The notes below the pieces were generated by a model. The model was not told the DNA's origin and did not search any database. It worked only from the letters and a program-made list of their open reading frames with translations. Positions 27,261-64,000 of a stretch of DNA of 64,000 nucleotides are shown here, piece by piece. Location: the NCBI RefSeq assembly GCF_004214795.1, contig NZ_CP035928.1, positions 62,001 through 126,000 of the forward strand. The letters are read 5' to 3'. Both the position numbers and the translations under genes were made by a program. Position 1 is the stretch's first letter. Every line of letters begins with the position of its first letter. This DNA is from Malaciobacter pacificus. GTDB taxonomy: Bacteria > Campylobacterota > Campylobacteria > Campylobacterales > Arcobacteraceae.

Positions 27261-27271
27261 AAAAGAAAAAT

Positions 27272-28414
27272 ATGAAAAAATATGATTTGTTTATAATAGT
27301 GTACTGTATTATTATAGTTTTATCTGTAATGTATGCAACTCAACCACTTCAACCACTTTTGGCAAAAGAGTTTGATGTATCCATAACAAAAGCCTCACAG
27401 TTTACAGCGGTGATTATGCTGTTTTTAGCAATTTCTCCTATTATATATGGATATATTTTAGAAAAAGTAAATGCAAAAAAAATGCTTATTAACTCTTCCA
27501 TAATACTATTTATTACAAATATTTTTTTAGGACTTGCAAGTAATTATGAATTATTCTTACTTTTTAGAACTATTGAAGCGCTAGTAATCCCAGCAATGCT
27601 TACATCACTTATGAGTATCTTAGCAAATATTGATAAAGAAAATATCAAGTTTAATATGTCAATTTATGTAGCTGCAACGGTATTTGGAGGATTGTTAGGA
27701 AGAGTTTTCTCTGGATTTATAGCAACCAATATCTCTTATCATTGGGTATTTTACTCTTTATCTTTTGCTATATTAATTTCTATATATTTTGTAAGTAAGT
27801 TAAGTTATGAAGGTGAAGCAACAATAGTTAAGCCTAAAATAAGTGATGTAACTGCTATTTTAAAAGATACAAGATTCTCTACAGTTTATTTACTTATGTT
27901 TTGTGTATTTTTTGTATTTGCTGGAGTTTTAAATGTATTACCTTTTAGATTAAAAGAGATTTCAACTGATATATCAGAATTTCAAATATCTTTACTTTAT
28001 TTAGGTTATGGAATGGGAATTTTGGTATCTTTAAATTCAAAAAAGATTATAAAGTTTTTTAAAAGTGAAGTAAATACTATTTTAGCAGGATTGATTTTCT
28101 TCTCTTTTATTACAATCTTTTTAACAATACCAAATGTAATGACAATGTTCTTACTGATATTTCTTTTTTGTTTAGGAATGTTTACAGTTCATACTGTAAG
28201 TACGGGGCTTGCAAACTCTCTAAAAGCATCTCAAAAATCATTAACTTCTGGAATGTATTTAACCTTTTATTATTTAGGTGGAGCTATTGGCTCATTTGTT
28301 CCTTCAATTATATATGAAAAGTTTGGTTGGAATAGTGTTATTTATATGTTTTGTGGGATTTTAATTTTAATAATAATACTTGTATTAAATAAAAAGAGAT
28401 TCTATTTACATTAA
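27272..28414 (+). CDS. MFS transporter (YnfM/arabinose-efflux-like)
   Basis: A 380-residue protein with about 12 membrane helices. The N-terminus (VMYATQPLQPLLAKEF) and the pattern FGGLLGRVFSGFIA in helix 5 resemble the YnfM-type drug/sugar efflux branch of the major facilitator superfamily. It starts 11 bp after the histidine kinase gene, so it is probably part of the same transcript and a target or tool of that two-component system. The substrate cannot be inferred. Confidence 0.8.
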   Translation: MKKYDLFIIVYCIIIVLSVMYATQPLQPLLAKEFDVSITKASQFTAVIMLFLAISPIIYGYILEKVNAKKMLINSSIILFITNIFLGLASNYELFLLFRTIEALVIPAMLTSLMSILANIDKENIKFNMSIYVAATVFGGLLGRVFSGFIATNISYHWVFYSLSFAILISIYFVSKLSYEGEATIVKPKISDVTAILKDTRFSTVYLLMFCVFFVFAGVLNVLPFRLKEISTDISEFQISLLYLGYGMGILVSLNSKKIIKFFKSEVNTILAGLIFFSFITIFLTIPNVMTMFLLIFLFCLGMFTVHTVSTGLANSLKASQKSLTSGMYLTFYYLGGAIGSFVPSIIYEKFGWNSVIYMFCGILILIIILVLNKKRFYLH

Positions 28415-28529
28415 ATTCATAAACCTTTAACTCCACATATTTTACACACAAAATAGTATAAAATTTTTTAAATAAAATAAAGGAGTCAACTATAAAGAAA
28501 CCTAACTAAAAAACAAAGATTTTAAAGTT

Positions 28530-29726
28530 TCATTTGGAAACACCTAAAGCTAAATTTTCATCAAATTTGGTTTTGTTCTTTAACATTACAAATATTGTTT
28601 TTAGAAGTTTATTTGCAACAGCAATAACAGCTTGTTTGAATTTTTTACCTTCTTCTCGTTTTTTAGAGAAATAGAGTTTAAATTTTTCACAAGAACGAAT
28701 AGTACCAATTGCCATTTGCCAAATAGTTCTTCTAAGGTTTGCATTACCTCTTTTAGAGATTTTGCCCCTATAGTTGATTGAAGTACCACTTTGTCTAACT
28801 GATGGGTCAATTCCTATAAAAGCACATAGTTGCTTTACGGAATTAAACTTATCAACAGAGGATACTTCAACCATAAAGTTTTTAGAAGTTACTGCTCCAA
28901 TTCCTGGTATTGATTGTACTATATCAATATCATTGTTTATATCAGTATCTTCTAAAGAGTTTTCCAACTCAGAATCTAGAATAGATAATTCATCTTGAAT
29001 AGCTATTAATCTTCTAATTTTAGAAGTTAAAACCTTTTCAAGATATTTATCGGATACGGCGATAGAAGTTTTTGCTAAGGCTAATATATCCTTTGCAGTA
29101 ATTTTAACTTTATTGCCACTTGTATCATCTAAGATTCGTTGGATGGTCTTTTCCCTTAAGTTCCTAATTGCTTTACGGCTAGGAGCTTTAAGGAGCAGAT
29201 TTAAAATGCTCTTTGTAAATATATTTGTGTTCTTTAACAATTCAGGGAATAATTGCACTAAATTAGCTTTTATTTCAGTTTTTAATCTTGCTACATCTTT
29301 CGAGAGGTTTTCTCTTTCACGGATAAGCGGTCTAATATTTTCAATATTATTAGTACTAGCAAGATGTAAAGATTGATATGATTTTAAACTAAATAGAGCA
29401 ATTGAAGCTGCATCTTTTTTATCATTCTTAGTTTTTCTAAGGGTAGTTGAACCAATAAAACTCTTTATGAGTATTGGATTAATCACTACACACTTAAAAC
29501 TATTTTCTAATAAAAAAGATAATAGTGGTAAATGATAAATACCAGTTGCTTCCATTGCTATTAAAAGCTCTTCTTTAGGATATGTGGATAAATACTCTAC
29601 TAAAGTATCAAATCCATCTCTATTCATTGTAAGCTTTACTTCTAGTTTAATTTCACCACTATTTTCAAGTAGTGTTAAATCAAAGCTATCTTTAGAAATA
29701 TCTATTCCTATGAATTGTTTATACAT
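28530..29726 (-). CDS. IS110-family DEDD transposase
   Basis: A 398-residue recombinase starting at ATG 29724-29726 (an in-frame GTG lies one codon upstream; AAAGG is 8 nt from the ATG). The N-terminal RuvC-like DEDD domain has GIDISKDSFD, AMEATGIYH and KNDKKDAASIA. The C-terminal Tnp domain has SIPGIGAVTSKNF, AFIGIDPSVRQSG, and SKRGNANLRRTIWQMA with the catalytic serine region. It is full length with no frameshift, so it is potentially active. Enzymes of this family are guided by a structured bridge RNA encoded in the element's non-coding end. Confidence 0.93.
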   Translation of the reverse strand: MYKQFIGIDISKDSFDLTLLENSGEIKLEVKLTMNRDGFDTLVEYLSTYPKEELLIAMEATGIYHLPLLSFLLENSFKCVVINPILIKSFIGSTTLRKTKNDKKDAASIALFSLKSYQSLHLASTNNIENIRPLIRERENLSKDVARLKTEIKANLVQLFPELLKNTNIFTKSILNLLLKAPSRKAIRNLREKTIQRILDDTSGNKVKITAKDILALAKTSIAVSDKYLEKVLTSKIRRLIAIQDELSILDSELENSLEDTDINNDIDIVQSIPGIGAVTSKNFMVEVSSVDKFNSVKQLCAFIGIDPSVRQSGTSINYRGKISKRGNANLRRTIWQMAIGTIRSCEKFKLYFSKKREEGKKFKQAVIAVANKLLKTIFVMLKNKTKFDENLALGVSK

Positions 29727-47964: not shown

Positions 47965-49191
47965 TTATAGTCCTAAAGACTTTAATGTTTCTAAAGTTAA
48001 TGCACCTTGATTTAATTTATTCTCTTTTTGATAAGCATTTACAGCAGCTTTTGTCTCAGGTCCATAAACACCATCAATTTTTGTGATTTTGTAGTTTTTA
48101 GATTGTAAAGCTTTTTGTAAATTAGAAATTACATTTGTAGTTGTATTTGTTTCACATAAAATTGGTTGCCATCTTAAGTATGAATCAGCTGTTTTTACTT
48201 TTGTTGGAACCATAGTATAAATTGCTGGAATCTCACTTTTAATCTCTTTAGCAGGAGTTGCAACTTCTCTTGTTTTTACAATTTTACAAATTGCTGGGAT
48301 CTTAACTTCTTTAGTAGTAGCAGGAGTAGCTACTACTTGTTTTGTAACAGTTTTATACACAGGTGGAGTCACAACTTTTTTAGTAGTGGCAGGAGTAGCT
48401 ACAACTCTTTTTGTAACAGTTTTGTAAACAGCTGGAGTTTTAATCTCTTTAGTAGTAGCAGGAGTAGCGATAACTTTTTTAGTAACAGATTTATATACTG
48501 CTGGTACTTCAACTAAACACATAATTTCACCTGTTGAGTTGTCAACTTTCTCAATCTCTCCTCTACCTTTTTTCCATGTAGTATATGCATCGGAAATTTT
48601 GATTTTTTCAGTAATAGTTTTATATGTTGCTGGAATTGATACAAGTTTTGTTTTTTCTGGTTCTACCATAATTTGTTCACTTACAGTTTTATATGTTGCA
48701 GGAACAGGTATTAATTTTGTAGCTTCAGGTTTTACTAAAATTTTTTCAGTCACAGTTTTATAAGTTTCAGGAACTTCAACTAATTTTGTTGATTCTTCTC
48801 TTAATGTAACTTTCTTCTCAACTACTTTATAAGTTGCTGGAACTATTTTAATAGTTTCTTGTGCTTCTTTTACCATTTTTTTAATCATTTTAGTTTCATA
48901 TTTTTCTGGAACTAAAACTTTTGCATAACATTCACCTGGCTTTGCATTTGGTGGTACTAATGAATTACTTACTGCATTTTTATCTTTGGCTTCAGCATTT
49001 AGTGCATTAATTGAATTTAAAGCCTTTGACTTTTCAGCTTCAAGTTGAGAAATTTGTGCATCTTTTTCTTCTAATGCTTTTTGTAGTTCAGCAACTGAGC
49101 TTGATAAAACTTCTTCTTTTGAAGAACAACCACTCATAGTAATAATTGCCGCAGCTGCTAATACTGCAGAATTTCTTAAATATTTAGTCAT
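47965..49191 (-). CDS. repeat-rich lipoprotein with C-terminal peptidoglycan-binding domain
   Basis: A 408-residue protein. A signal peptide ends in the lipobox TMSGC, then a coiled coil (about 28-65) is followed by about nine imperfect repeats of 22-23 residues with the pattern P-x-x-Y-K-x-V-T-x-x-V, followed by a P/E/T-rich spacer. Two segments with [SA]-D-[AS]-Y-x-x-W interrupt the array. The last ~60 residues (VISNLQKALQSKNYKITKID, GVYGPETKAAVNAYQKEN) are a PG_binding_1 domain. It probably spans from a lipid anchor to the cell wall. Function unknown. Confidence 0.8.
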   Translation of the reverse strand: MTKYLRNSAVLAAAAIITMSGCSSKEEVLSSSVAELQKALEEKDAQISQLEAEKSKALNSINALNAEAKDKNAVSNSLVPPNAKPGECYAKVLVPEKYETKMIKKMVKEAQETIKIVPATYKVVEKKVTLREESTKLVEVPETYKTVTEKILVKPEATKLIPVPATYKTVSEQIMVEPEKTKLVSIPATYKTITEKIKISDAYTTWKKGRGEIEKVDNSTGEIMCLVEVPAVYKSVTKKVIATPATTKEIKTPAVYKTVTKRVVATPATTKKVVTPPVYKTVTKQVVATPATTKEVKIPAICKIVKTREVATPAKEIKSEIPAIYTMVPTKVKTADSYLRWQPILCETNTTTNVISNLQKALQSKNYKITKIDGVYGPETKAAVNAYQKENKLNQGALTLETLKSLGL

Positions 49192-50749: not shown

Positions 50750-50826
50750 GCGTCTATGGCTCAACTGGATAGAGCTCCCGGTTTCGGCCCGGGTGGTTGT
50801 GGGTTCGAATCCTACTAGGCGTGCCA
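50750..50826 (+). tRNA. tRNA-Arg, anticodon UCG
   Basis: A 77-nt cloverleaf. The acceptor GCGTCTA pairs with TAGGCGT (two G-U pairs), D stem GCTC/GAGC, anticodon stem CCCGG/CCGGG with loop TTTCGGC (anticodon TCG at 50784-50786), T arm GTGGG-TTCGAAT-CCTAC, discriminator G and an encoded CCA (50824-50826). It reads CGN arginine codons. It sits immediately upstream of the pilus-like cluster, a position often used by genomic islands, but no repeat of its 3' end was found in the window. Confidence 0.95.
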
Positions 50827-51079
50827 TCTTACATAATATACAAATTTTCCATTTATTAAATATAGCTTATTTATTTTTAAATAATTTTTTCATTTTGAAT
50901 ATGGAATAAAAAATCTCTTTTTAAAATTCTATTATATAAGCTATGTTAGTAAAAAAATAAAAGAATTATGTGAAAAAATAATTTATCAACTGACTAAAAT
51001 ATAATTATAATTTAAGCTAATCTTTTTATGCTAGAATATGCATGTAACTGTAAAAATCTAATCAAAACAAGGGATATAT

Positions 51080-51634
51080 ATGCCTTATCTGGTATCTTCA
51101 ATTATTACTGTTGTTGCTGCAATGGTGATACTTTTAACAAGATATGAAGCAGATGATAGTGCTATTATGTCACAAATTGAAAAGATGAAAACAATGGTCT
51201 CTATGGTTGATGGATATGTAAATACATATATCGAATCAGGAGGAATTTTAAGTGATATTAACTTTCAAGTTTTAGCAGATGCTGGTATCTTAAGTAATGT
51301 TGGTACAAATCAAAATAACACTAGATTAAATCCTAGTGATGGTTCTGGAACAATAGAAACAACTATGAGTCTACCAAATGATGATGTTATTTGGCATATT
51401 ATTCCAAATAAGTTAAACGCAGACTCTTATAAACTTTTAGTTGATTTTACAGGAGATTCTTCTTTGATGAGTAAATCTAGATTTTCAGAAGGATTTATAG
51501 GTAGAGAGTATTGTGAAAAGATGTTATTTGGAGAGTTATTAAGAGAACAAGATCAATTTGATGGTACAGATGATTTTGAAAATGATTCAGGTTCAAATGA
51601 TGATGGAAGATTTGTTTGTATAGTATATAAATAA
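51080..51634 (+). CDS. leaderless pilin-like protein 1
   Basis: A 184-residue protein. Residues 1-20 (MPYLVSSIITVVAAMVILLT) are one hydrophobic helix, followed by an amphipathic helix (to about 48) and a segment with DINFQVLADAGILSN, the same order as in type IVb pilins. There is no prepilin leader, no Gly-cleavage site and no Glu5; an in-frame TAA lies just upstream, so no leader is possible. AGGGA precedes the ATG. The C-terminal tail is Asp/Asn/Gly-rich with two late cysteines. It starts the secretion/pilus cluster. Probably a minor pilin. Confidence 0.65.
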   Translation: MPYLVSSIITVVAAMVILLTRYEADDSAIMSQIEKMKTMVSMVDGYVNTYIESGGILSDINFQVLADAGILSNVGTNQNNTRLNPSDGSGTIETTMSLPNDDVIWHIIPNKLNADSYKLLVDFTGDSSLMSKSRFSEGFIGREYCEKMLFGELLREQDQFDGTDDFENDSGSNDDGRFVCIVYK

Positions 51635-51679
51635 ATTTTGGTGTAGCTAAATGCTACTTTAATATGGGCTGTAGGTAGG

Positions 51680-51685
51680 TATAAT
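51680..51685 (+). promoter_or_regulatory. putative promoter (-10) of pilin-like gene 2
   Basis: TATAAT in the context TAGGTATAATCTTAAC lies 29 bp before the ATG at 51709. It separates the second pilin-like gene from the first and suggests independent, perhaps strong, expression. Confidence 0.55.
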
Positions 51686-51708
51686 CTTAACATAAAAAGG
51701 GTCGAAAA

Positions 51709-52371
51709 ATGCCACAACTGATAGCAATGGTAATCGTAGTAGTTGGAGCTATGATATATATGTTCCAAACATTTGGTGGAACTGGTGATAAAATTGAAGG
51801 TATTGCACAAAGAACAAGCATTATTACTGAAATTAATAATATTAGAAATGGTCTACAGTTAGCTGTAAGAGCTGGAGATATTACTAACGATGGTGCAGGA
51901 AATGTTACTACTTTAAGAGATCTAGCAGTTTTAGGTTATTTCGCAGATCAAATGAATGATGAAATTGCGGATAATACTGATAATGCTCTTTTAACAAATG
52001 GTAATGGAAATGCATATAGTGCTATTTCATTTGGTGGTGAAAATAACCCAGGAATGATTATAAATTTAGTAGTTGGTGCAGTAGATACTAGACCAGGAAT
52101 TAGGGTAGAGTTTTTAAATGAACTTGCAACAAATGCAGATTTTTTAGAAACACAGATATATAATGATTTATCAGCAGTTGCATCAATTGACAGAACAACT
52201 ACAGATGGTTCTTCAGTTGCAATCGACGGTAATGGTGATACACCTGATGGTACAAGACCTGTAGATAATGCAGCTACTGTAGGTACAGTTGCTGCAGGTA
52301 CAGCAACTTTAACAGATGGAATTTTTACAATTTATTTTAAAGATATGCCTGAAAGAATAGCAAATCCATAA
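51709..52371 (+). CDS. leaderless pilin-like protein 2, likely major pilin
   Basis: A 220-residue protein starting MPQLIAMVIVVVGAMIYMF, one hydrophobic helix, then an amphipathic helix (about 25-55) and LRDLAVLGYFADQM. The remaining part is Asn/Asp/Gly/Thr-rich. The layout parallels the mature part of type IVb pilins such as BfpA, but there is no leader peptide, no glycine cleavage site and no Glu5; a TAA stands in frame just upstream. It has its own promoter (51680) and its own strong terminator (52376-52403), so it may be the abundant subunit. No cysteines. Confidence 0.65.
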   Translation: MPQLIAMVIVVVGAMIYMFQTFGGTGDKIEGIAQRTSIITEINNIRNGLQLAVRAGDITNDGAGNVTTLRDLAVLGYFADQMNDEIADNTDNALLTNGNGNAYSAISFGGENNPGMIINLVVGAVDTRPGIRVEFLNELATNADFLETQIYNDLSAVASIDRTTTDGSSVAIDGNGDTPDGTRPVDNAATVGTVAAGTATLTDGIFTIYFKDMPERIANP

Positions 52372-52375
52372 TAAA

Positions 52376-52403
52376 TAATATTTAGGCTCACGCCTAAATA
52401 TTA
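52376..52403 (+). terminator. terminator after pilin-like gene 2
   Basis: A 12-bp perfect stem (TAATATTTAGGC / GCCTAAATATTA) with loop TCAC, 4 bp after the stop codon. It isolates the candidate major pilin gene from the rest of the cluster; read-through would supply the downstream genes. Confidence 0.75.
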
Positions 52404-52480
52404 CAGTTTACACAAAACAAAACCTAAGTACTAAATAATTTAGCATTTAGTTTTTATTTTTATTAAAAAAAGGTTTATAA

Positions 52481-53206
52481 ATGTTCGCAACAAAAATATG
52501 GCTAGCATCGGCACTCACTGTTACAGCTATATTTACTGCATCAGCAGTTTATAAATCATATAGTGACTTACATGAAGCAAAACAAATCCAAGAGCACTTT
52601 GAAATAATTACAGATATAAAAACCCTTCTAGCCAAACAGTATAATAAAAATCCAAATGATATTACAAGAGATGAAATAATAGCCTATTTACCAAAGGGTG
52701 GAAACTGGGATAAAGTTCTACTTTTAGATAGAAACCAAGATAGCACTTTAAGTGAAGATGAACTTGTAAATAATGATGGAGAAATTATAATAAATGAAGA
52801 TGAAAAAGTAAAACTTTTTGCTTTAAAAGCAAAGTTAAATGATACATTAAACACTGCATCAATGAGTGCTTCAAATGGAACTTATACTGTCAATATAGCT
52901 CATAATAAAACCATAAAACAAAAAGATAAAACAGTAGAGGATAGTTTGGAAAAAGCTATTTATTATGCTACTCAAGAGCTTATATATGGAACTGAAACAA
53001 ACTACTCAGGTGTTGTTACAAATATGGTAGATAACTTTACTCCACATGATGATATTTATCATGACTTAAGTGATATAGGGCTTTCAACTGATAGTGAAAC
53101 TATAAAGAAAAAGAAATACTTCCAAAGTTTACTAAAAAGTAGGCTAGAAAAAAGTCTAACTCCAATTGAGAGCAAGTTATATACTCTTTTGAAAGATGAA
53201 TTATGA
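52481..53206 (+). CDS. pilin-like protein 3 with EF-hand loop
   Basis: A 241-residue protein with an N-terminal membrane helix (about 5-24, IWLASALTVTAIFTASAVY) and then an amphipathic helix, as in pseudopilins. Residues about 83-94 (DRNQDSTLSEDE) form a canonical EF-hand calcium loop with Asp1, Asn3, Asp5, Ser9 and Glu12. The helix-then-DEIIAYLP element parallels the other two pilin-like proteins. There is no prepilin cleavage site. Its last bases overlap the next start (ATGA). Likely a minor pilin or tip-complex member. Calcium binding is inferred. Confidence 0.6.
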   Translation: MFATKIWLASALTVTAIFTASAVYKSYSDLHEAKQIQEHFEIITDIKTLLAKQYNKNPNDITRDEIIAYLPKGGNWDKVLLLDRNQDSTLSEDELVNNDGEIIINEDEKVKLFALKAKLNDTLNTASMSASNGTYTVNIAHNKTIKQKDKTVEDSLEKAIYYATQELIYGTETNYSGVVTNMVDNFTPHDDIYHDLSDIGLSTDSETIKKKKYFQSLLKSRLEKSLTPIESKLYTLLKDEL

Positions 53207-53931
53207 TTAGATTATTAACTCTTTTATCAATACTATTTTCAATATCTTTTTCTATGGATTTAACAAAATTTGAAGATAGACAAATTATGATTGATGAGAT
53301 AAAAGCAATTGTTTTAAAAGAGGAAGAGACAGCAAAGGCTTATGAAGAGTATATTTTAGAAAATTATGATATTCCTACATTGTTAGAACTTGAAGGTGCT
53401 AGTTATTTAGGAAGCTCTTTTTTAAGTGGAATTGATACTACTTATTTTGTGAAACTTGCCTTTGATGGAATTTCAAAACTTACATATAGCCTAAAAGAAG
53501 AAGTGAAAAATGACAACTATTTAAAGTCACTTTATGAGAGTAATACCTTTAGAAAAAATAGTTTTTATTCAGGTGGAAAAATTAATTTTATAGTTAAAGA
53601 TGACTTTGCAAAATATATAATTTATTTAGTTCAAAATCAAACAGCAGGGATTGATGGAATTATTGATTGTAGTTTAAATTTATTAGGAGTTTCTCTTAGT
53701 AAGTATTGTAAAGATGGTGATAATATCTATATTTATGATGACTTACAAGTAAATAAGCTTATGTATTTTTATAAAGAAAATTTTAAAAAAGGTCCAATTA
53801 TTATAACTTCAGATAGAACACTTCAAACAACAAATGCAGAGTTTGATTTTATCCCAAAGGGTGCTGTTTTATATGATGAGGATGGAATTAAATATGTAAA
53901 GACATCTACAGGAATTGAGGAGATACAATGA
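53203..53931 (+). CDS. secreted paralogue family member 1 of the pilus-like cluster
   Basis: A 242-residue protein with a signal peptide (about 1-17). Residues 30-75 form a shared module: KEEETAKAYEEYILENYDIP, then LGSSF. The same module is found in the proteins at 53928, 54666 and 63172. The C-terminal part ends with a strand-rich segment (IPKGAVLYDEDGIKYVKTSTG). Two cysteines (about C164 and C176) may pair. It overlaps both neighbours by 4 bp (ATGA), so translation is coupled. Family unknown to me. Confidence 0.7.
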   Translation: MIRLLTLLSILFSISFSMDLTKFEDRQIMIDEIKAIVLKEEETAKAYEEYILENYDIPTLLELEGASYLGSSFLSGIDTTYFVKLAFDGISKLTYSLKEEVKNDNYLKSLYESNTFRKNSFYSGGKINFIVKDDFAKYIIYLVQNQTAGIDGIIDCSLNLLGVSLSKYCKDGDNIYIYDDLQVNKLMYFYKENFKKGPIIITSDRTLQTTNAEFDFIPKGAVLYDEDGIKYVKTSTGIEEIQ

Positions 53932-54665
53932 TAAAGTTTATTTTATTTATTTTTTCATTTTCTATTATTTCATTTGCAGATGAAAATCAAATGTTAAAAC
54001 AACAAAATGTTCTTCTTGTTCAAAAATTAATTGAGAGTGAGGAAAAAATAGCCAAAAATTTTGAGAGATATATTCTTGAAAAGTATAAAATACCAACTAT
54101 GAGCAATCTATTAGAGGATGAGTATTTAGGCTCAAGTTTTTCATTATCAAATAAGTTTGGCTTTGATTTAAGTTTTAAAAGTAGTTCTAATTTACAGTTA
54201 TATTATGCAATAACAAATGAAAATGACCCAAATGATTATAAAAATTTACTTTATAAAAGAGATTTATACAGAGAATATACTTCTGTATATTTAGAAGAAA
54301 TTAGTGCTGATGAAATTAACTACAATAATTCGTTTACAGAAATTTTATTAAAGAGTGATGAAGCTAAAACTTTACACTCAATTTTAAAAGCAGGTTATAC
54401 TATTGAAGAGAGTTGCCCTTCACCTTCTGGTACCTTAGTAGATAAGTATTGTAGTTTAAATGACAGTGCTATAAGATGGTATAATAGTAGTTCTTTTTGG
54501 ATTGAATATAGTAAAAAAGATTTTGATAGAGGTAATGTAACAGTTTCTACAAGTTCTCTTTTAAGTGATAGTAGAATAACTTCACTACCTATTGGTACAT
54601 ATATTTATATAAATAATGGTGCACAATATGTTAAATTAAAAGATAGTATTTTAAAGGTGGATTAA
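53928..54665 (+). CDS. secreted paralogue family member 2
   Basis: A 245-residue protein with a signal peptide (about 1-17, ending SFA). The shared module is SEEKIAKNFERYILEKYKIP then DEYLGSSF. The C-terminal part is strand-rich and ends LPIGTYIYINNGAQYVKLKD, matching the IPKGAVLYDEDGIKYVK ending of the 53203 protein. Two cysteines in the second half lie at similar positions as in member 1. The two are full-length paralogues in tandem. Function unknown. Confidence 0.7.
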   Translation: MIKFILFIFSFSIISFADENQMLKQQNVLLVQKLIESEEKIAKNFERYILEKYKIPTMSNLLEDEYLGSSFSLSNKFGFDLSFKSSSNLQLYYAITNENDPNDYKNLLYKRDLYREYTSVYLEEISADEINYNNSFTEILLKSDEAKTLHSILKAGYTIEESCPSPSGTLVDKYCSLNDSAIRWYNSSSFWIEYSKKDFDRGNVTVSTSSLLSDSRITSLPIGTYIYINNGAQYVKLKDSILKVD

Positions 54666-57560
54666 ATCAAAAAGCTAGTTTTATTTTTATCAATTATTTT
54701 TGTTAATTTTATTTTTGCTAATTCTCAAAATGTAGCATTAATGAATGGTATCAAAAATGTTATTCAAAAAGAAGAGTTTATTGCAATAGCAATAAATAAA
54801 TATATTTTACAAAATTTAACTGTACCTAAAAAATTAAATGTCGTAAATTCAAAATATGAATTAGACTGGAATGAAATGCTAAATGATGAGTATTTAGGGA
54901 CTAATTTTAATAAATATAATCCAATACTAAAAAGTGATATTCTAGTAGAGTTTGATAGCAAAAATAATGCCTATATAAAAGGTGCAATAACAGAAACTAC
55001 TGAGTATAAAGAAGAGTATAAATATCTATATAACTTTTATACAAATAAAGTATTTAGAGTAAATACAATAGCCCCAATTGATAATACAGATACAAATTTA
55101 CTTAATGGTTCCCTTGTAGTCTATTCAGATTTACAACAAAAAATTATAAATCTATTAAATGATAGCCAATCTATTTTATACCCAAGTCAAAACTGTACAG
55201 CAGGAACATATTTTTATGAAATACAAGATGAAGAATTAATTTATAAATATTGTAAATCACAAAGCTATAAAATAGAGGTTTATCAAAAAGAACCTGTGTA
55301 TGTAGAAGAGGATGATGATTTAAGTTTTATAAAATCAGATATTGGCTCAAAAGGATATGTAAAAAAGAATGGATTCTGGTATGAATATTATTATCAAGGA
55401 GATACTAATAGTCCTTGGATACCAACTGGTTCAGGAAGTATTTTAACTGAAAACTTAGATAATACTACAATTGAAGATAGGATCTTATCTTATATCCCTG
55501 ATTCAAAAGCACTAACTATTAAAGAAGCAGGTGGTTGTATGCTTGCAAATGGTGATATTTTTTGTTGGGGAGATAATTCTTATAAAAGAGCTGGAATTGA
55601 TACTTATGGTCAGATTGATACAAGCCTATCTCCTGATTTTGTAAATACTCCTGTGATGTTAAAAGTTAATATAAATGATTCAGTAAGAGCTAATAAAAAA
55701 TGGTATAACAATCCATATAGAATTAAATTTGAATCAATGTTTATGAATGGTAAAAATGTATGTGGAACTTCACCAATTTATGATATAGATGGAACAAATG
55801 AGAAGTATGGAGGGGATTTATATTGTAATGGTAGTGTTGATTCTATGTATTATGAAACATCAGCTAACTCAATTCAAACTTCAATTTTAAGTAAGAATAA
55901 ATTCTTTGCATGGGGAAAAGATGATTTTGAAGATAATGCCCCTCAAACTATAAATGATGAAGAAGATGGTGGCCCAAACTACAATGATAGACCTATTAGA
56001 GATGAGATATATCTAACTGATGTTGCAATGACATCTGATACAATTGCTGTTTTAAGTGATGATGGAAAAATCTATACTTTAGGCAGAAATTATAATGGTT
56101 TGTTAGGTATTGGAAGTAATGATAAATTTATCACTCAATATGAACCTGTACAAGTACAAGTTGATGCAGGAGTATTTTTTGACCAAATATTTGTTCTTAG
56201 GGATATAGATACTTTTGGTGCAATTGATAATAATAAAAACTTTTGGATTTGGGGAGAAAGGGATGGCACTTTTTTATCAAAACCAACAAGATTAAATGAT
56301 GGTGATATGCAAATAAATCCTGATTTAATTTTTGTAAATAGTAAAGAGTTTTTATTCCAAAATTTAAGCTCAAAAGTATTTTATAGAACAGATGGCCAAA
56401 ATGATATTGTCTCAATTAGTACGAGTGATATTCCAAAAACAGCAGTTAGTGCAACAATAATTGAAGAAGATGGAGTTTGGAAATATTTATATGTTGATGA
56501 AGATTTTGATTTAAAAGGTACACAAGCATTGTTAGAGTGTAGAAATAAGCGAGATTTTAGATGTAGTGCGGCATTAAATATACAAATTTTTGACCACGCT
56601 TTGCAAAAATTAAATAATGAATCTAATTTTTTAAATGTTTCTACATATAAGTTAGATGCAACCGTTGAAGAAGTTTATGAAAATTTTGAAGGCTCTTCTT
56701 CTACTGTAAATACATGGACATTAAATACATATAGTGATAATAATTTTACAAACCTAACATCTTCTGTTACCCCACCTTTATATAATCCAACAGAAAGTGT
56801 ATCCTCTGATGATAAGGTAAGAGTTGACCCTACACAAGTTTTAGGAAGATTTAGAATTGGATATCAATCTGTAGATAAAACTTATGATTTTGGATCTTCT
56901 TATGCAAATAGAGATGTAGTTCTTGAGTTTGATTTTTATGAAATTGATTCTTGGGATATGGAAAGATTTAATGTTGTAATAAATGGTGAGAGATATACAG
57001 ATGATGGGTTTATTCATGATGACCATCAAGAGTGGCAAGATACAAATGACACAGGAATTTATACACTAAACTTAGGAACTATGTATGGAAGTAATACTAG
57101 TAGATCTAAATATAATGATGAAAAATATCATTATAAAATAAAAACTAAACTAGACTCAAATGGAAAATTAGAAGTTAAGTTTAGAGTTAGAGAGTTACAA
57201 GCTGGTGAATATGGAGATAATAGTTGGGATTTTGGGCAGGCTTTAAATGATGAATCTTGGGCTATTGATAATATACATGTGAAAGTAAAAGAAAAAGATA
57301 AACATTTTACATGTGCAATAACAGGAATTAGTACTGATTCACAGATGTATTGTTGGGGAGTTGTGGGAAGAAGTTTACCTATTTTAAGCACTTCATTATA
57401 TAATATGTATAAAATAAGTACTTTAAATAAATTATTTATTTCAACAAATGCAGACGCTAATAAACAAATGACTTTAGATGAATTTGACATAGATGGAAGT
57501 CTATTTTTGAAATATCCCACGTACATTGGTGGATTTGACTATCCATTTTATTTTAAGTAA
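54666..57560 (+). CDS. large secreted RCC1-like propeller protein with apparent AUC start
   Basis: About 964 residues. The first ATG (54741) lies inside the mature part; reading upstream gives the signal peptide KKLVLFLSIIFVNFIFA before NSQNV. The previous gene's TAA (54663-54665) is directly before it, so the only start is ATC 54666, with AGGTGG just upstream. The shared module follows (IQKEEFIAIAINKYILQN, EYLGTNF). Then come RCC1-like blades: GGCMLANGDIFCWGDNSYKR, SDDGKIYTLGRNYNGLLGIG, and a late MYCWG. A jelly-roll-like insertion (EFDFYEIDSWDMERFNVVIN, about residues 725-880) interrupts the propeller. Likely a surface adhesin or cargo. Confidence 0.7.
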   Translation: MKKLVLFLSIIFVNFIFANSQNVALMNGIKNVIQKEEFIAIAINKYILQNLTVPKKLNVVNSKYELDWNEMLNDEYLGTNFNKYNPILKSDILVEFDSKNNAYIKGAITETTEYKEEYKYLYNFYTNKVFRVNTIAPIDNTDTNLLNGSLVVYSDLQQKIINLLNDSQSILYPSQNCTAGTYFYEIQDEELIYKYCKSQSYKIEVYQKEPVYVEEDDDLSFIKSDIGSKGYVKKNGFWYEYYYQGDTNSPWIPTGSGSILTENLDNTTIEDRILSYIPDSKALTIKEAGGCMLANGDIFCWGDNSYKRAGIDTYGQIDTSLSPDFVNTPVMLKVNINDSVRANKKWYNNPYRIKFESMFMNGKNVCGTSPIYDIDGTNEKYGGDLYCNGSVDSMYYETSANSIQTSILSKNKFFAWGKDDFEDNAPQTINDEEDGGPNYNDRPIRDEIYLTDVAMTSDTIAVLSDDGKIYTLGRNYNGLLGIGSNDKFITQYEPVQVQVDAGVFFDQIFVLRDIDTFGAIDNNKNFWIWGERDGTFLSKPTRLNDGDMQINPDLIFVNSKEFLFQNLSSKVFYRTDGQNDIVSISTSDIPKTAVSATIIEEDGVWKYLYVDEDFDLKGTQALLECRNKRDFRCSAALNIQIFDHALQKLNNESNFLNVSTYKLDATVEEVYENFEGSSSTVNTWTLNTYSDNNFTNLTSSVTPPLYNPTESVSSDDKVRVDPTQVLGRFRIGYQSVDKTYDFGSSYANRDVVLEFDFYEIDSWDMERFNVVINGERYTDDGFIHDDHQEWQDTNDTGIYTLNLGTMYGSNTSRSKYNDEKYHYKIKTKLDSNGKLEVKFRVRELQAGEYGDNSWDFGQALNDESWAIDNIHVKVKEKDKHFTCAITGISTDSQMYCWGVVGRSLPILSTSLYNMYKISTLNKLFISTNADANKQMTLDEFDIDGSLFLKYPTYIGGFDYPFYFK

Positions 57561-57568
57561 GGAAAAAC

Positions 57569-59221
57569 ATGCGTAAAGTATTGAGTATCACTTTTATAGT
57601 ATCACTGATTATCTTATTTTCAGGCTGCAGTCCTAAAAGTTACCATAATGAGATGTTAGATAACACAAAAAGAAGCCTTGGGAAAAAGGATTATCAAGAT
57701 ATTAAAACCTCTTATACAGAAGAGTTAGTAAATGAAGTAAAAAAGCAAAAAGAGTATATTTCAATTTTAGAAGATAAATCTTTAGGGGATATTTTAAAAG
57801 AAATGGAACTATTAGATGGTAATTTTTACTTTCTAAAAAGCAGTGATATTCTTATTCCTAAAAGTAGAATTAAAATTCATAGCATGAGTGAATTAAATCA
57901 CTATTTAAATGCTGTATTAGATAAAGAACTTTTTGTAAAAAAAAGTGGCTCAATTTATCTTGTAAAACTTTTAAATGTAAGTGAATCAAAAAAACTATCA
58001 CTTGATAGAATTCCTTTTAAATTAAATGGTCAAATTTCAGTAGAAGAGTTAATAAAACTAATTACAGCAAGCTGCGGATATGAAGTATCAATTGGAAATT
58101 ATATAAAAGATAGATTTGGATTTCAAAATAGTATTGTAAATATCAGTTCTACAAATTTAAAAGATGCATTAAATTCATTAGCTTATGCAAAAAATGTTTA
58201 CGTAGATATTGATTATGATAAAGAGATGATAAATATTAGTAGATATAAAGATATGGTTGTTGAGTTAAATATTCCTCTTTTAGATATTAAATCTACAAAT
58301 GAAACATCAAGTCAAGAAACATCAGGTGAAAGTAGTATCAAAAATAGTTCTCAAATAGTTTTATATGATGAGCTTGATAAAATGTTAAAAAATATAATAG
58401 CAACTGATTCAATCTCTACATATCATATTGATAAAGCAAGTGGATTGATATTTTTAAAATCAACTAGAAGTGTTGAAAATGCAGTTAGAACTATAGTTAA
58501 AGCATATGAAACAAGTTTTGCTAAAGAAGCAACTATAGAGTTTGAAAGAATTGAGTTAGCTTTAAATAAAAGTAGAGAGTATGGCATTGGTAGTATTAGT
58601 GATAGTAGACAAACAAATCAAGATGCAGGTGTATTAAAATCTATCGGTGCTGATGGTGCAATAAATTTTACAAGCGATAATGCAACAAGACTTTTACAAA
58701 TTGCAGCAAAAGCAAATAATGAAATAGGAACAATCTTAAATTATAGTAAAAATATAATTGTGTTAAAAAATAATATCCCATCTGTTCAATCAATTAGTCA
58801 AAATACTGATTATATTGAAAAAATTGAAACAACAGTAACTGAAGGTGTTAGTACATCTGAAGCAACAGTTAATACTATTAAAGATGGAACTTCTGTTACA
58901 GCAATGGCTAAAATATCTAGGGATAAAATATTTTTAAATATTACACCAACAATTAAAAAACTAATTGAAATTACTGAAAAAACAGTTGGTGATTCAACTA
59001 TTCAATTACCTCAATACAATGACCAAAGTTACAATATTTCAAGAGAAGTAAAACTAGGAGAGACAGCAATCGTTGGTTCTATTATAATTCATGATGATGC
59101 AAAAGAGTATCAAGGGATTTTACCTTTAGAAGGTTTTGCAATTGGTGGGGCTGATTCAAAATCTTATGTAAGAAGAGAAATTGTGTACATTGTAACACTA
59201 AGAAATATTAAAGGCTTTTAA
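57569..59221 (+). CDS. lipoprotein secretin (type IVb pilus PilN/BfpB-like)
   Basis: A 550-residue protein with a signal peptide ending in the lipobox ILFSGC (Cys20). The N-terminal half holds small alpha-beta domains (for example VEELIKLITASCGYEVSIG, then NISSTNLKDALNSLAYAKNV). The C-terminal half has the secretin pattern: IVLKNNIPSVQSI, VTAMAKIS, LNITPTIKKLI and LGETAIVGSIIIHDD. It should form the multimeric outer-membrane gate of the machine. The lipoprotein form and size fit R64 PilN / BfpB rather than GspD, which is longer. Confidence 0.85.
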   Translation: MRKVLSITFIVSLIILFSGCSPKSYHNEMLDNTKRSLGKKDYQDIKTSYTEELVNEVKKQKEYISILEDKSLGDILKEMELLDGNFYFLKSSDILIPKSRIKIHSMSELNHYLNAVLDKELFVKKSGSIYLVKLLNVSESKKLSLDRIPFKLNGQISVEELIKLITASCGYEVSIGNYIKDRFGFQNSIVNISSTNLKDALNSLAYAKNVYVDIDYDKEMINISRYKDMVVELNIPLLDIKSTNETSSQETSGESSIKNSSQIVLYDELDKMLKNIIATDSISTYHIDKASGLIFLKSTRSVENAVRTIVKAYETSFAKEATIEFERIELALNKSREYGIGSISDSRQTNQDAGVLKSIGADGAINFTSDNATRLLQIAAKANNEIGTILNYSKNIIVLKNNIPSVQSISQNTDYIEKIETTVTEGVSTSEATVNTIKDGTSVTAMAKISRDKIFLNITPTIKKLIEITEKTVGDSTIQLPQYNDQSYNISREVKLGETAIVGSIIIHDDAKEYQGILPLEGFAIGGADSKSYVRREIVYIVTLRNIKGF

Positions 59222-59224
59222 AAA

Positions 59225-60241
59225 ATGAGTATGTTCTCTGATCCTTATGAGTCTTTTTTATTAGATTATTTGATTACTAAATTAGAAAATGGTTCTAATA
59301 CTAGAAGAGCATTACTTTTATATGGTGAACAAATAACTAAAGAAACAAAATTTAAAAAAAGACTTAAAGCTGCAATTAGAGATATGGAAATAGGTAAACA
59401 CTCACTTGAAGCAATTTTACATAAGCATAAGTTTTTAAACTCATTTCAATATAGTTTAGTAGTAAATAGTACAAGTACAATTGATGGATTAAAACTTGTA
59501 CAATCATTTAAAAAGGCAAACTCAAATCTATTAACTAAAATGATAAATCCTATTTTTGTACCCTTAGGAATAATAATAGCAACATTTTATGGATTGATTT
59601 TATATCTTGGAATGCTTGAAAAAGAGCTTGTAGGTTTGAAAAAATTAAATCCTGATGTAGAACAATTTCTAGGAATCCCTGGCTATTTTACTTATGATAT
59701 TGCATATCTAGGACTTGGAATATCTATTTTTATTACAGCATTTATTCTTTTTGGATATATTTATTGTGAAAAATATAAACCTGGATGGTTATATGGTGTT
59801 TTTAAAACACAAGCCTTTTCTGATGGAAGATTTATGTTTAGAATTTTAAATGGTATGCTAAGTGCTGGTATATCTTTTCATAAAACATCATTGATTTTAT
59901 CAAAAGACTATTTTAAAGTAGGTCTTAGACCATTTTTTCACGAGTTATCAGATATTATCAATAGAAATAAAAAACTATTTATAGTTTTTGAAAAATATAA
60001 TTTTCCTACAATTATAACAGCAGATATAAAACTTTCAGAACTAAGTAAAACAAGTTTTGTAGAAGTAACAAAAGCACTATATCAAACTTGTGATACAATG
60101 TATGAAAAAAATATTAATTATATGGTATTACAATGGAGATTTTTCTTCTGGTTAATTGCTATGTTAGTAACAGTTATTATTGGTTCGGATGTTATTAACT
60201 TAGTTATTAGTACATTTACATTTAAAACTTTATATCAGTAG
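59225..60241 (+). CDS. GspF/PilC-like inner-membrane platform protein (PilR-type)
   Basis: A 338-residue protein with two weakly similar cytoplasmic helical domains (FKKRLKAAIRDMEIGKHSLE and FMFRILNGMLSAGISFHKTS) and three membrane helices (about 115-133, 155-178, 310-332). This T2SSF-domain layout is shared by GspF, PilC and R64 PilR. It connects the ATPase to pilus or pseudopilus assembly. Located 4 bp after the secretin gene. Confidence 0.82.
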   Translation: MSMFSDPYESFLLDYLITKLENGSNTRRALLLYGEQITKETKFKKRLKAAIRDMEIGKHSLEAILHKHKFLNSFQYSLVVNSTSTIDGLKLVQSFKKANSNLLTKMINPIFVPLGIIIATFYGLILYLGMLEKELVGLKKLNPDVEQFLGIPGYFTYDIAYLGLGISIFITAFILFGYIYCEKYKPGWLYGVFKTQAFSDGRFMFRILNGMLSAGISFHKTSLILSKDYFKVGLRPFFHELSDIINRNKKLFIVFEKYNFPTIITADIKLSELSKTSFVEVTKALYQTCDTMYEKNINYMVLQWRFFFWLIAMLVTVIIGSDVINLVISTFTFKTLYQ

Positions 60242-60253
60242 GCAAAAGTAGTT

Positions 60254-61942
60254 ATGTTAGGTAAATTATTTAATAAGAAAACATCTTTAAAAGTGTTAAA
60301 AGGAATCAAAAAAAGTAATAAGAAAAAAGAGTCTAAAAATATTTTTGATTCAAAAAATTTAAAAAGAATTTTTGAAGAACAAAAAAAATCTTTTATTAAA
60401 TTAATAAACAATAAAGAAGATGCAGATACAGACTTAGCTATTTTAATTGAAGATATGATTAAAGATAAATACAAGTTAAGTGGTGGATTTGGAGACTTAA
60501 TTGCAAATGAAGAAAAATATGAAGAGTTTGTAAGAAGTCTTGGATATGAATATTATGCAACTTATAATGAATTATCTCAATATTATCAAGATACATCTTT
60601 TCAACTTGATGAAAAAAAATTAGAGTTTTGTACAAGTATGTACATAATAACTTTAGAAGATAAAAAAACAAAAAATAAAGTTCTTGGTATTAGAGATGTT
60701 GTAAACTTAGACTTTGATGTTTTAAGTAAGTTTTACTTCACAAAAATTGTAGTTTTAGGAGAGGGAGTATTATCTTCAGTATTTGGTGAAGATAGAGAGA
60801 TTATCTTTGGTTCAAATGCTGATACAGATAATGATGAAGAGATTAATAAATATTTTGACAAAATGATGGGACAAGCTATTTTATTAGGAGCTTCTGATAT
60901 TCACATTCAAAAAACAAATAGATATGCAAGTCTTTGGTTTAGAATCGATGGTATTAAAGTTGAGATGGGTACTATGCCTATTGCAATTGCAAAGACTTTA
61001 AAAAGAAGACTTGTAACAATGGCAGACCAAGAAGATTCTGATTATGAATCAATTAATGGTGTTATTAATTATGAGTATGGAAAAAAATCAATAAAATTTA
61101 GACTTGGTTTAATTAACTCAAAACTAAACTTTTCACTTGTTATGAGGATGATTGGTGGTAAAGGTGTAGTTTCTCATAAACTTGAGGGATTAAACTATCC
61201 AAAAGAGTCAGTTGATATACTAAAAAATCTTACAAGATATGCAAATGGAATGATACTTATCACAGGACAAGTTGGTTCTGGTAAAACACACTTAATGTAT
61301 GCCCTATTAAAACAACTTGCACAACAGCAACAATATGTTGTAACCATTGAAGATCCAGTTGAGTATGTTGATGAAGCCTTTTTCCAAATTGACTTATCAG
61401 AGTTTGCAAGTGCAAGTGAAGAGTTTAAGTATGGTTATCCTGAAGCGGTTGTTGATATTTTAAGACAAGATTCAAATATTATTCTTATTGGTGAGACAAG
61501 AGAGCCTCAAACAGCTTCACAACTTGTAAATGCAGCAAACTTAGGACAGTTAGTATTCTCTACAATGCACACCAACTCAGCCCCTGCAACAGTGTCAAGA
61601 ATGACAAGTTCATTAGGAATTAATGAAGGGGATATTGTTGATAACTTAAGAGGAATAGTATCTCAAAGACTAGTTAGAAAACTTTGTGGTTATTGTAAAA
61701 CAGAAGATGGAGAAGGTGGTTATAAAAAAGTTGGATGTGATGAATGTAACAATAGCGGATTTAAAGATAGGGTTCCTATTGCAGAGGTTGTAAGATTTAA
61801 AATTGGTCATGATGGTGATTTCGAAAATCCAGCTGAATATATGACAGTTGAGAAAGCTTGTATGGCGCAATATCATGCTGGATTAATTACAAAAGAGGAT
61901 GCGATGGCAATTATTAGAGGGGAAGAAGTATGGTACGACTAG
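60254..61942 (+). CDS. GspE/PilB-type secretion ATPase
   Basis: A 562-residue cytosolic hexameric ATPase. Walker A is ITGQVGSGKTHLMYALL (about 336-352), the Asp box is VTIEDPVEYVDEAFFQID, Walker B is NIILIGETREPQTASQL and the His box is FSTMHTNSAPATVSRM. A tetracysteine zinc motif (CGYCKTEDGE, then GCDECNNSGF) follows the His box, marking it as an assembly-type GspE/PilB protein. N-terminal residues 1-150 are divergent and charged. It powers extension of the pilus or pseudopilus. No second (retraction) ATPase is in the window. Confidence 0.92.
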   Translation: MLGKLFNKKTSLKVLKGIKKSNKKKESKNIFDSKNLKRIFEEQKKSFIKLINNKEDADTDLAILIEDMIKDKYKLSGGFGDLIANEEKYEEFVRSLGYEYYATYNELSQYYQDTSFQLDEKKLEFCTSMYIITLEDKKTKNKVLGIRDVVNLDFDVLSKFYFTKIVVLGEGVLSSVFGEDREIIFGSNADTDNDEEINKYFDKMMGQAILLGASDIHIQKTNRYASLWFRIDGIKVEMGTMPIAIAKTLKRRLVTMADQEDSDYESINGVINYEYGKKSIKFRLGLINSKLNFSLVMRMIGGKGVVSHKLEGLNYPKESVDILKNLTRYANGMILITGQVGSGKTHLMYALLKQLAQQQQYVVTIEDPVEYVDEAFFQIDLSEFASASEEFKYGYPEAVVDILRQDSNIILIGETREPQTASQLVNAANLGQLVFSTMHTNSAPATVSRMTSSLGINEGDIVDNLRGIVSQRLVRKLCGYCKTEDGEGGYKKVGCDECNNSGFKDRVPIAEVVRFKIGHDGDFENPAEYMTVEKACMAQYHAGLITKEDAMAIIRGEEVWYD

Positions 61943-62679
61943 TAATTACTGATTTTGCTAGTAAAGAAGATAATGAATCATTTTATGTAAATGATGAATT
62001 TGATGCTTTAACTCAAATATATACATATCAATCCTTTAAAAAAAATGCAGTATATTTATCAAAATATGAAGTGCATGATGAAATATACTCTTTAAATTTG
62101 CTTTCAAAAAAACATTTGAAAAAAAATCAGTTTTTAATTCATATTGCAGATGGGGAATATATTATTTTATTTAATCATAAAACAGTTTATTCTGCAAAAA
62201 TAAATCAAAACTTTATTACTGATGATATGATTAAATCGATCTTAATTACAAAACATATTGTAATGCTTTCAAGTGGTGGAGCTATTGATAAACTCTATTA
62301 TGTAATAAACTCTAAATATAAAAGTGCTATTGAAAATATTTTAAAACAAAATACAAGAAATGATAAAGGTGATGTTGTTGCGCAATCCTTAGGAGAAATC
62401 AAAGATTTAGTAAGGCCATTAGTTGAATTAGATACTTTTAAAGGTCATGCTTTTAAAAACTCATTTAGCTTGATTTTTGTTGCTGGAATTTTGTGGTTCA
62501 TGTTTTATGGCTTAGATGTTTTTAGTAATAGTTTATTTGGTAAAGAGTCTTTAGATAGTTTAAATAGAGAATTAAAAGTACAAAACAGATTGTTAAAAAG
62601 GCAAGAAGTATTATATAATAAGAGTTTAAAAGAGTATAAAGATTTGACTGATTGTATAACTGTGAAAGGTACAAACTAA
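61930..62679 (+). CDS. GspL/PilO-like bitopic protein of the pilus-like machine
   Basis: A 249-residue protein. Residues 1-170 look like a cytoplasmic domain of mixed alpha-beta type, then one membrane helix (LIFVAGILWFMFYGLDVF, about 183-200) is followed by a short periplasmic coiled coil (LNRELKVQNRLLKRQEVLY). This order matches GspL, PilM-PilN fusions and R64 PilO-like assembly proteins that link the ATPase to the alignment complex. The start overlaps the ATPase gene by 13 bp. The family is not recognised by sequence; the assignment rests on topology and place. Confidence 0.6.
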   Translation: MVRLVITDFASKEDNESFYVNDEFDALTQIYTYQSFKKNAVYLSKYEVHDEIYSLNLLSKKHLKKNQFLIHIADGEYIILFNHKTVYSAKINQNFITDDMIKSILITKHIVMLSSGGAIDKLYYVINSKYKSAIENILKQNTRNDKGDVVAQSLGEIKDLVRPLVELDTFKGHAFKNSFSLIFVAGILWFMFYGLDVFSNSLFGKESLDSLNRELKVQNRLLKRQEVLYNKSLKEYKDLTDCITVKGTN

Positions 62680-62680
62680 G

Positions 62681-63175
62681 ATGGTAAGTATTAGTAAAAA
62701 AACTGTATCTTTAATTATTAAAATAGGACTAGCCGTAGTTGTTGTATATACTATTGGTTTTGCTTTTTATAAAATTGGTACGTATTATAAAACATATTAT
62801 GAAAAGCAAAAACTTACTCAAGAGTTACAAATAAAGAAAAATGAAACTAATAGTTTAAAAAGACAAATAAAATTAAATCAAGAAAAGATTGAAGATGTTA
62901 AAAATAGTTATATATCAAAGGATGAATTGGCAGTAAAAGTAAAAGATATTTTTGAAAGAATGTCTGTATTTGATTATAATTTAGCATTTTTAGATGCAAA
63001 AAAAATGTGTGTTGATAGGTATGTATTAATCACACAATTAACTTATCAAAGTGAACAAGGGAAAAAAGCAGGTGAGGGTATTTTATCATACATTGGTGAT
63101 ATGAAACAAAGTGATAAAAATAGTTCTTTATATTTTGTTGATTATGTGACAAAACCTAAAGGAATTAAAAAATGA
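62681..63175 (+). CDS. GspM/PilO-like bitopic protein
   Basis: A 164-residue protein. One membrane helix near the N-terminus (about 8-30, SLIIKIGLAVVVVYTIGFAF) is followed by a coiled coil (about 40-75, LQIKKNETNSLKRQIKLNQE) and a small periplasmic domain. Type II secretion GspM and type IV pilus PilO have this layout and pair with the bitopic GspL/PilN-like protein encoded 1 bp upstream. It overlaps the next gene's start by 3 bp (ATGA). Topology-based call. Confidence 0.6.
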   Translation: MVSISKKTVSLIIKIGLAVVVVYTIGFAFYKIGTYYKTYYEKQKLTQELQIKKNETNSLKRQIKLNQEKIEDVKNSYISKDELAVKVKDIFERMSVFDYNLAFLDAKKMCVDRYVLITQLTYQSEQGKKAGEGILSYIGDMKQSDKNSSLYFVDYVTKPKGIKK

Positions 63176-64000
63176 AATTAGTTATTCTTTTTTTTCTACT
63201 ATTTAATTTTTCTATTGCTACAAAGTTAGATTCCCTAAGTTTAGCAAAAATCAAGAAAACTGTTCAAAAAGAGGAAGAAATAGCTAAAGCTTATAAGAAT
63301 TTTTTGATAAATGAAGGTAGTGTACCAACTGTTGATAGTTTAATTACAGCTGGATATTTACCAAAGGGCTTTAGTAAAATTAATCCTTTTGGTAAGGAGA
63401 TGAAAATCTCATTAACACTTGATAATACAATTGTTAATAGCCTTCCAGATAGTATAAAAATTGATGCTTATGATCATTATTACAATGGAAAATACAGAGA
63501 GTATACAAGAGAACCTCTAAGTTCTACTAGTGATAATGTAAAAATATATTTAAGTAAAAAAGAGAAAATTATTTTTGATAGAATCGCAGAAATTGATAAT
63601 ACAAATCCTGTTAGTCAATATAGTTTAGAAGATGGTGTTCTAAATTGGTATGATGCAAATGGAAATTATAAATACTCTTTTGATGGTGAAAAAATAATTG
63701 TAGATGAAAGTGTAACAATTTTAAATTCATTAAAATCTTTTTCGACTGAGTTTAAAAATATGACATCTGGAGTTAGACATGCAGGACAGACTATTTTACA
63801 AGAAGATAATGGAGTAGTAGAAGATTATTTAGTAACAGATGATAGTGCTGTTGCTTTAAATGAAACGAAAAGAAATTATGGTGGAACAATTATTCAATTT
63901 ACAAGACGTGCTGGTGGAATGATTGTAAATGGAGATATTTATACTTGGGGAAATAATCAAAATAGAATTACAAGTATCAATAGTGATAATTTAACAGGAG
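63172..64000 (+). CDS. secreted paralogue family member 4 with RCC1-like start, cut by window
   Basis: ATG 63172 overlaps the previous stop. The frame is open to the window edge (276 codons), so the C-terminus is missing. A signal peptide (about 1-17, MKLVILFFLLFNFSIA) leads into the shared module VQKEEEIAKAYKNFL, then TAGYLPKGF. From residue 240, GGMIVNGDIYTWGNNQNR is the opening of an RCC1-like blade, as in the 54666 protein. It is probably a second large propeller protein. The paralogue pair flanks the assembly genes. Confidence 0.75.
   Translation, partial: MKLVILFFLLFNFSIATKLDSLSLAKIKKTVQKEEEIAKAYKNFLINEGSVPTVDSLITAGYLPKGFSKINPFGKEMKISLTLDNTIVNSLPDSIKIDAYDHYYNGKYREYTREPLSSTSDNVKIYLSKKEKIIFDRIAEIDNTNPVSQYSLEDGVLNWYDANGNYKYSFDGEKIIVDESVTILNSLKSFSTEFKNMTSGVRHAGQTILQEDNGVVEDYLVTDDSAVALNETKRNYGGTIIQFTRRAGGMIVNGDIYTWGNNQNRITSINSDNLTG

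Follow-up and report, generated by a model that had tools for sequence, protein, structure and literature searches.

A Type 4 Filament-Like Operon with Leaderless Pilin Candidates in Part of the Arcobacteraceae

Operon Layout and Conservation

The window analyzed here is a 64,000-nucleotide stretch (bases 62001–126000) of the single 2.66-Mb contig that makes up the genome of Malaciobacter pacificus. Downstream of ubiA and a flanking tRNA-Arg(tcg) gene (50750–50826, + strand; ARAGORN), 14 genes (o1–o14) form one operon on the + strand from window position 51080 to 67437, with the last 3.4 kb lying beyond the window end. These genes code for three small proteins (o1–o3), two Sec-exported proteins (o4, o5), an RCC1 protein (o6), a secretin (o7), a GspF-like and a GspE-like protein (o8, o9), a GspL-like and a GspM-like protein (o10, o11), an RCC1 paralogue (o12), an SH3 protein (o13), and a degenerate GHKL-like protein (o14). 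An initial annotation of this DNA had described a same-strand gene set with short or overlapping junctions, and all genes that it listed were found on the + strand. From o3 onward the junctions are mostly short or overlapping; the o1–o2 and o2–o3 gaps mostly measure about 60 to 380 nt. The operon end that had been placed at position 64000 is wrong, since o12 continues to 65346 and is followed by o13 and o14. Upstream of the tRNA gene, the − strand encodes a lipoprotein (47965–49191) with about ten "VPATYKTV"-type repeats and a C-terminal peptidoglycan-binding domain.

A search with the o7 secretin against 397 genomes of the phylum returned 12 matches at 60–100% identity, M. pacificus included, and one at 35% (G349). 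Gene order is kept in M. pacificus and 11 relatives, all Arcobacteraceae from several genera, and G349 carries a rearranged, divergent version. The same order was found in a collection of named genomes at seven loci, of which one lies on a short contig; names attached to related loci include Aliarcobacter, Arcobacter vandammei, and Poseidonibacter lekithochrous. The profile of o2 matches in exactly those 13 of 399 order-level genomes that contain the machine and nowhere else. Because gene order is kept across genera and o2 tracks the machine exactly, this gene set is more than a chance arrangement; conservation in other Campylobacterota, which the initial annotation had proposed to check, was found within the Arcobacteraceae, and a decayed operon can be ruled out. 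In one genome (G106; L041, 11133–12335 in operon orientation), o8 is split by an ORF of ∼400 aa that resembles an inserted transposase, and this copy may have been disrupted recently or may no longer function.

The genomic setting varies. In three small genomes (L040–L042) the operon lies between different flanks. In operon-negative genomes the same tRNA-Arg is often followed by integrase-like genes (L114, L119, L121, L122), and in others a short unrelated stretch separates it from purT. Where the operon is missing, the tRNA-Arg site is a hotspot of integration, and this variable occupancy suggests gain or loss of the operon at a busy site. For M. pacificus itself, a tRNA-borne mobile island is not supported, since no integrase was seen in the operon and the flanks are common to relatives. 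Viral contigs and phages contained no o2, and PHROGs and PADLOC gave nothing useful.

Secretin, Platform, and ATPase

The center of the operon encodes a recognizable assembly machine. Protein o9 (60254–61942, +) is a GspE/PilB-like assembly ATPase with a strong T2SSE match (4e-65) and a tetracysteine motif (CGYC...CDEC). Protein o8 (59225–60241, +) is a GspF/PilR-like inner-membrane platform with a weak T2SSF match and homology to the platforms of the leadered sister systems described below. Protein o7 (57569–59221, +) is a lipoprotein secretin of the BfpB/MshL/PilN type: its matches to the models of MshL (TIGR02519, 9.5e-13) and PilN (TIGR02520, 1.1e-7) stay under the cut-offs, and its profile finds BfpB alone among solved structures (9.1e-23). 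Of the three models suggested for checking the locus, T2SSE matched strongly, T2SSF weakly, and TIGR02520 below its cut-off. Proteins o10 (61930–62679, +) and o11 (62681–63175, +) have one transmembrane segment each and are assigned as GspL- and GspM-like bitopic proteins by position; o10 is conserved with no match in PDB or Pfam, and o11 adds a coiled helix. With these assignments, the secretin, platform, tetracysteine ATPase, and bitopic proteins of the initial annotation are all confirmed. Downstream of o12, o13 (65362–66357, +) is periplasmic and occupies the position of PilP/GspC, and o14 (66367–67437, +) is conserved at the operon end. When the profiles of o10, o13, and o14 were compared with PDB, a match was obtained for o13 only, to SH3. 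By our own reading, o14 (L004:18367–19437) carries an invariant NNGF box at the position where histidine kinases have a DNG box, and it is possibly an inactive histidine-kinase relative.

An ATPase and a platform encoded in one locus and, in diderms, an outer-membrane secretin are among the marks of the type 4 filament superfamily, and this operon has all three. These observations support a real, divergent machine of type IVb pilus/type II secretion system (T4b/T2SS)-like character.

Position among Known Systems

In trees of the ATPase and of the platform, the leaderless systems and three leadered systems (G044, G040, and contig C98 of G349) form one Campylobacterota-only clade (support 100/99 and 99/96). 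The R64-type T4b plasmid systems, the host T2SS, and the host Cts-like pair (L049) lie outside this clade, in trees with few references and long branches. Assignment to a known T4P or T2SS subtype, which had been named as the outcome that would count against novelty, is therefore not what the trees give.

The leadered sister systems have a secretin, platform, and ATPase homologous to those of the M. pacificus operon, similarly placed bitopic proteins, and Sec-secreted operon proteins whose resemblance to our cargo proteins is weakly supported by BLAST (1e-4 to 6e-3). They differ in gene order and in the presence of canonical prepilins inside their operons, and three of three sister prepilins match N_methyl. 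G349 carries both versions, the leadered one on contig C98 (L113) and the leaderless one on contig C56 (L043). A leadered sister system grouped with that of G040 lies on the 92-kb plasmid NZ_CP040940 of Caminibacter pacificus (9027–28613; L123), the only plasmid found in a secretin search of plasmids.

Among characterized systems, the type IVb pili (BFP, TCP, R64 thin pilus) resemble this operon in their clustered genes, lipoprotein secretin, single ATPase and platform, and few inner-membrane partners. TCP also encodes a Sec-exported cargo protein, TcpF, within its operon (PMC9565799). Unlike type IVb pili, the M. pacificus operon has pilin candidates that lack leader and Glu5, and it contains neither the linked prepilin peptidase nor the lytic transglycosylase of R64-type loci. 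Its ATPase and platform do not group with the R64-type branch, a placement to be read with the sparse references and long branches in mind, and T4bP have been reported from Proteobacteria only (PMC10191384). The operon shares GspE/F/D/L/M-like parts with T2SS but has neither leadered pseudopilins nor a T2SS-type ATPase and platform; the host T2SS occupies a different locus and a different branch. The MSHA pilus is similar in its MshL-type secretin and in that Denise et al. described MSHA loci that lack a peptidase and may borrow one from another system (PMC6668835). The difference is that MSHA pilins do have leaders for a borrowed enzyme, whereas in the present operon the leader itself is absent. 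Finally, the Cts and pilMNOPQ clusters of Campylobacterota (PMC8308473, PMC11870540) come from the same phylum and have homologous ATPases and platforms, but the M. pacificus operon does not follow the pilMNOPQ order, and the host's Cts-like pair stands apart in the trees.

Pilin Candidates without a Leader

The first two genes, o1 (51080–51634, +) and o2 (51709–52371, +), are paralogous (hhalign 2.9e-6), and their products begin directly with the hydrophobic stretch. The o2 protein starts with MPQLIAMxIxVVGAMIYMFQTFGGTGDKI, almost unchanged in 12 genomes, and with MPLLIAAVVGIAGAMIYLFSSYGNTTD in G349, and its first 30 residues hardly vary. For o1 the start is M[PAG]Y, except in G349, where it is MPLL. 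Glu5 is absent from both. The 26 o1/o2 proteins gave no match to N_methyl and one weak, non-significant match to Pilin (E 0.12), and o1 and o2 had no significant match to known pilins in Pfam, NCBIfam, or PDB, in line with the earlier remark that the pilins belong to no known family. The class III signal peptide, which defines prepilins (PMC10191384), is missing from o1 and o2 in all 13 genomes, although the prepilins of the sister systems have one. The third protein, o3 (52481–53206, +), is likewise small, N-terminally anchored, and leaderless, and is a candidate minor pilin. Three pilin-like proteins with an N-terminal hydrophobic stretch had been recognized correctly in the initial annotation; the leaderless nature of o1 and o2 had been missed, and the pilin role that it gave them is argued for below.

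Could this be an ordinary T4b pilus with prepilin leaders hidden by wrong start calls or non-AUG starts? Missed starts are conceivable in principle, given that o6 has non-AUG starts in four genomes. For o1 and o2, however, in-frame stop codons occur 1–18 codons 5′ of the starts in 13 of 13 genomes (1–4 codons 5′ of o2 in several, 1–3 codons 5′ of o1 in others), a ribosome-binding site lies directly before each ATG, and the 13 genomes share no upstream peptide. Mis-called starts are thereby refuted unless a programmed frameshift is demonstrated, and we regard overlooked leaders as highly improbable. Our literature search found nothing on leaderless pilins or on this Arcobacter locus.

Several features suggest that o1 and o2 are nevertheless the pilins of this machine. 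Two invariant Cys residues lie close to the C-terminus of o1, as is often the case in pilins. By our count, both proteins carry net negative charge just after the hydrophobic stretch, which fits a C-out topology. The o2 stop codon is followed by a perfect 12-bp hairpin (52376–52403, +), a candidate attenuator or mRNA stabilizer. In 11 of 12 genomes a hairpin is found at this constant place with varying sequence (z −2.5 to −6.8), as would be expected for a subunit made in excess. Against the pilin assignment, Foldseek found no usable PDB match for the AF2 model of o2, a model of modest confidence (pLDDT 66) with helices at residues 2–20 and 26–54 followed by strands where type 4 pilins have a long N-terminal helix and a beta-sheet head ("lollipop"), and hhalign detected no profile homology between o2 and the sister prepilins. 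Since o2 occurs only in genomes with the machine, the sister systems encode their leadered pilins inside the operon, no system-specific leadered pilin was found among the N_methyl proteins of two small positive genomes, and o2 is followed by the hairpin, we consider it quite probable that o1 and o2 are pilins. Their N-termini depart from the definition of type 4 pilins even though the machine resembles T4b systems, and we therefore do not call this operon a member of the T4bP.

Prepilin Peptidase and Leadered Pilins Elsewhere in the Genome

Every type 4 filament is described as having a pilin, a prepilin peptidase, an extension ATPase, and a platform (PMC10191384). The operon encodes neither a prepilin peptidase nor PilT, as had been noted for the window. 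The M. pacificus genome contains a single A24 peptidase, unlinked to the operon as in every genome tested, and no PilT; its only T2SSE-type ATPases above cut-off are o9, the GspE of a classical T2SS, and a Cts-like GspE. The initial annotation mentioned the lack of a peptidase alongside the compactness of the set. The absence stands, but it goes beyond compactness because o1 and o2, unlike the sister prepilins, have no class III leader and so present nothing for the A24 peptidase to cleave. In the smaller Arcobacteraceae genomes L074, L080, L081, L086, L088, and L090, the A24 frame measures only 164–179 aa, too short to accommodate the methylase domain that the 265-aa form has at its N-terminus.

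Leadered pilins do exist in the same genomes. M. pacificus has a full T2SS with leadered GspG/I/J prepilins (L048) in addition to the Cts-like ATPase and platform. No SPIII gene was found in the 64-kb window or the downstream 24 kb; the same scan gave three at the T2SS locus, the positive control. In the small complete operon-positive genomes G106 and G237 we found only two N_methyl proteins, of kinds that are present in operon-negative genomes as well; among the N_methyl-detectable proteins of these two genomes no leadered pilin specific to this system was found.

The A24 peptidase of these genomes is functional, and two leadered pilins are widespread in them, so that o1–o3 could instead be accessory membrane proteins, and the machine could polymerize a CtsG-like or priA-linked prepilin matured by the unlinked enzyme. 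The sharing of a peptidase between systems has precedent (PMC6668835), and the missing fold match of o2 would also be in keeping with such an arrangement. The candidate prepilins, however, are equally present in operon-negative genomes and are needed by the host T2SS and Cts-like systems, each leadered sister system has its own linked pilin, and o1 and o2 come first in the operon, to which they are strictly linked. We judge a borrowed prepilin to be improbable on this evidence. A bolder reading, which we consider somewhat likelier than its negation, is that leaderless pilins replaced canonical prepilins in one family, giving a peptidase-free type 4 filament in which methionine aminopeptidase would provide the only processing and no Glu5–N1 pairing would take place.

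Secreted Paralogues

Interleaved with the machine genes are four secreted paralogues, as initially described: o4 (53203–53931, +) and o5 (53928–54665, +), which are short Sec-secreted proteins, the RCC1-propeller protein o6 (54666–57560, +), and a second RCC1-propeller paralogue, o12 (63172–65346, +, cut by the window at 64000). Signal peptides and operon positions were seen, and the paralogy is real: o4, o5, and the N-terminal part of o12 have a region in common, marked by an invariant EE and by conserved A, Y, and R residues, which by position o6 appears to share. The 939-aa o6 protein scores above the RCC1 cut-off. It most likely starts at a non-AUG codon, AUC at 54666–54668 immediately after the o5 stop, and this start yields a signal peptide that is absent from the version beginning at the ATG of 54741. 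Corresponding non-AUG codons occur in four genomes, AUC in three and AUU in one (M. pacificus; L032 6323, L033 5876, L037 6356), and the other genomes have ATG at this position. The o5 model (pLDDT 89.5) combines a long helix with a beta-rich domain in a confident fold for which Foldseek found no usable relative in PDB, a further point that weighs against our overall reading.

Relative to the M. pacificus proteins, the core changes slowly (o8 71–87%, o9 78–90% identity) and the cargo fast (o4 27–42%, o6 32–53%, o12 32–59%), a pattern that would fit surface-exposed proteins. TcpF is Sec-exported, encoded in the same operon as a T4b pilus, and leaves the cell via this pilus by binding a minor pilin through its N-terminus (PMC9565799). 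By analogy, the shared N-terminal region may play a TcpF-like role, with the RCC1 propellers as the displayed part. The earlier proposal of a new T4b/T2SS-like subtype that displays or exports propeller proteins holds with respect to the divergent machine and its own secreted set; it may also hold for export and display, with TcpF as the precedent.

The same proteins could be released into the medium by a short periplasmic, T2SS-like pseudopilus rather than displayed on a surface pilus. Such a device would agree with the absence of PilT from the genome, with the operon's own set of four Sec-exported paralogues, and with the GspL/GspM-type bitopic proteins. The BfpB/MshL-like secretin and the separate, complete T2SS of the host speak against it. 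Because cargo export is known from T4b pili as well (PMC9565799), the two explanations overlap and differ only in filament length and in the fate of the cargo. We rate a pseudopilus as possible but rather unlikely.

Proposed Mechanism and Implications

Taken as a whole, the locus is best read as a type 4 filament machine with a plan nearest to type IVb pili, confined to part of the Arcobacteraceae, built from leaderless subunits, and carrying its cargo on or through the filament; we assign this reading a probability of roughly two in three. In the corresponding mechanism, o2 would probably be the major subunit and o1 and o3 accessory, all made without a prepilin leader. Their hydrophobic N-termini would insert them into the membrane in an N-in/C-out orientation, and in o1 and o2 the initiator Met alone would be removed in front of P, A, or G at residue 2. 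The o1–o3 subunits would then polymerize, extruded by the o9 ATPase acting on the o8 platform, held by o10, o11, and o13, and passing through the o7 lipoprotein secretin. The four Sec-exported paralogues, two of them RCC1 proteins, would be brought to the surface by this filament, either on it or through it, in the manner of TcpF and CofJ on type IVb pili.

The finding adds a Campylobacterota branch to the T4b-like machines, one in which the annotated relative, the Caminibacter plasmid system, has a functional name for its ATPase alone. If the leader and the peptidase step have indeed been dropped in nature, the purpose of this step, whether in membrane insertion, in the timing of assembly, or in the N-terminal chemistry of Glu5 and methylation, would become testable. 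The leader question can be addressed directly because leadered sisters exist in the same family and, in G349, even in the same genome.
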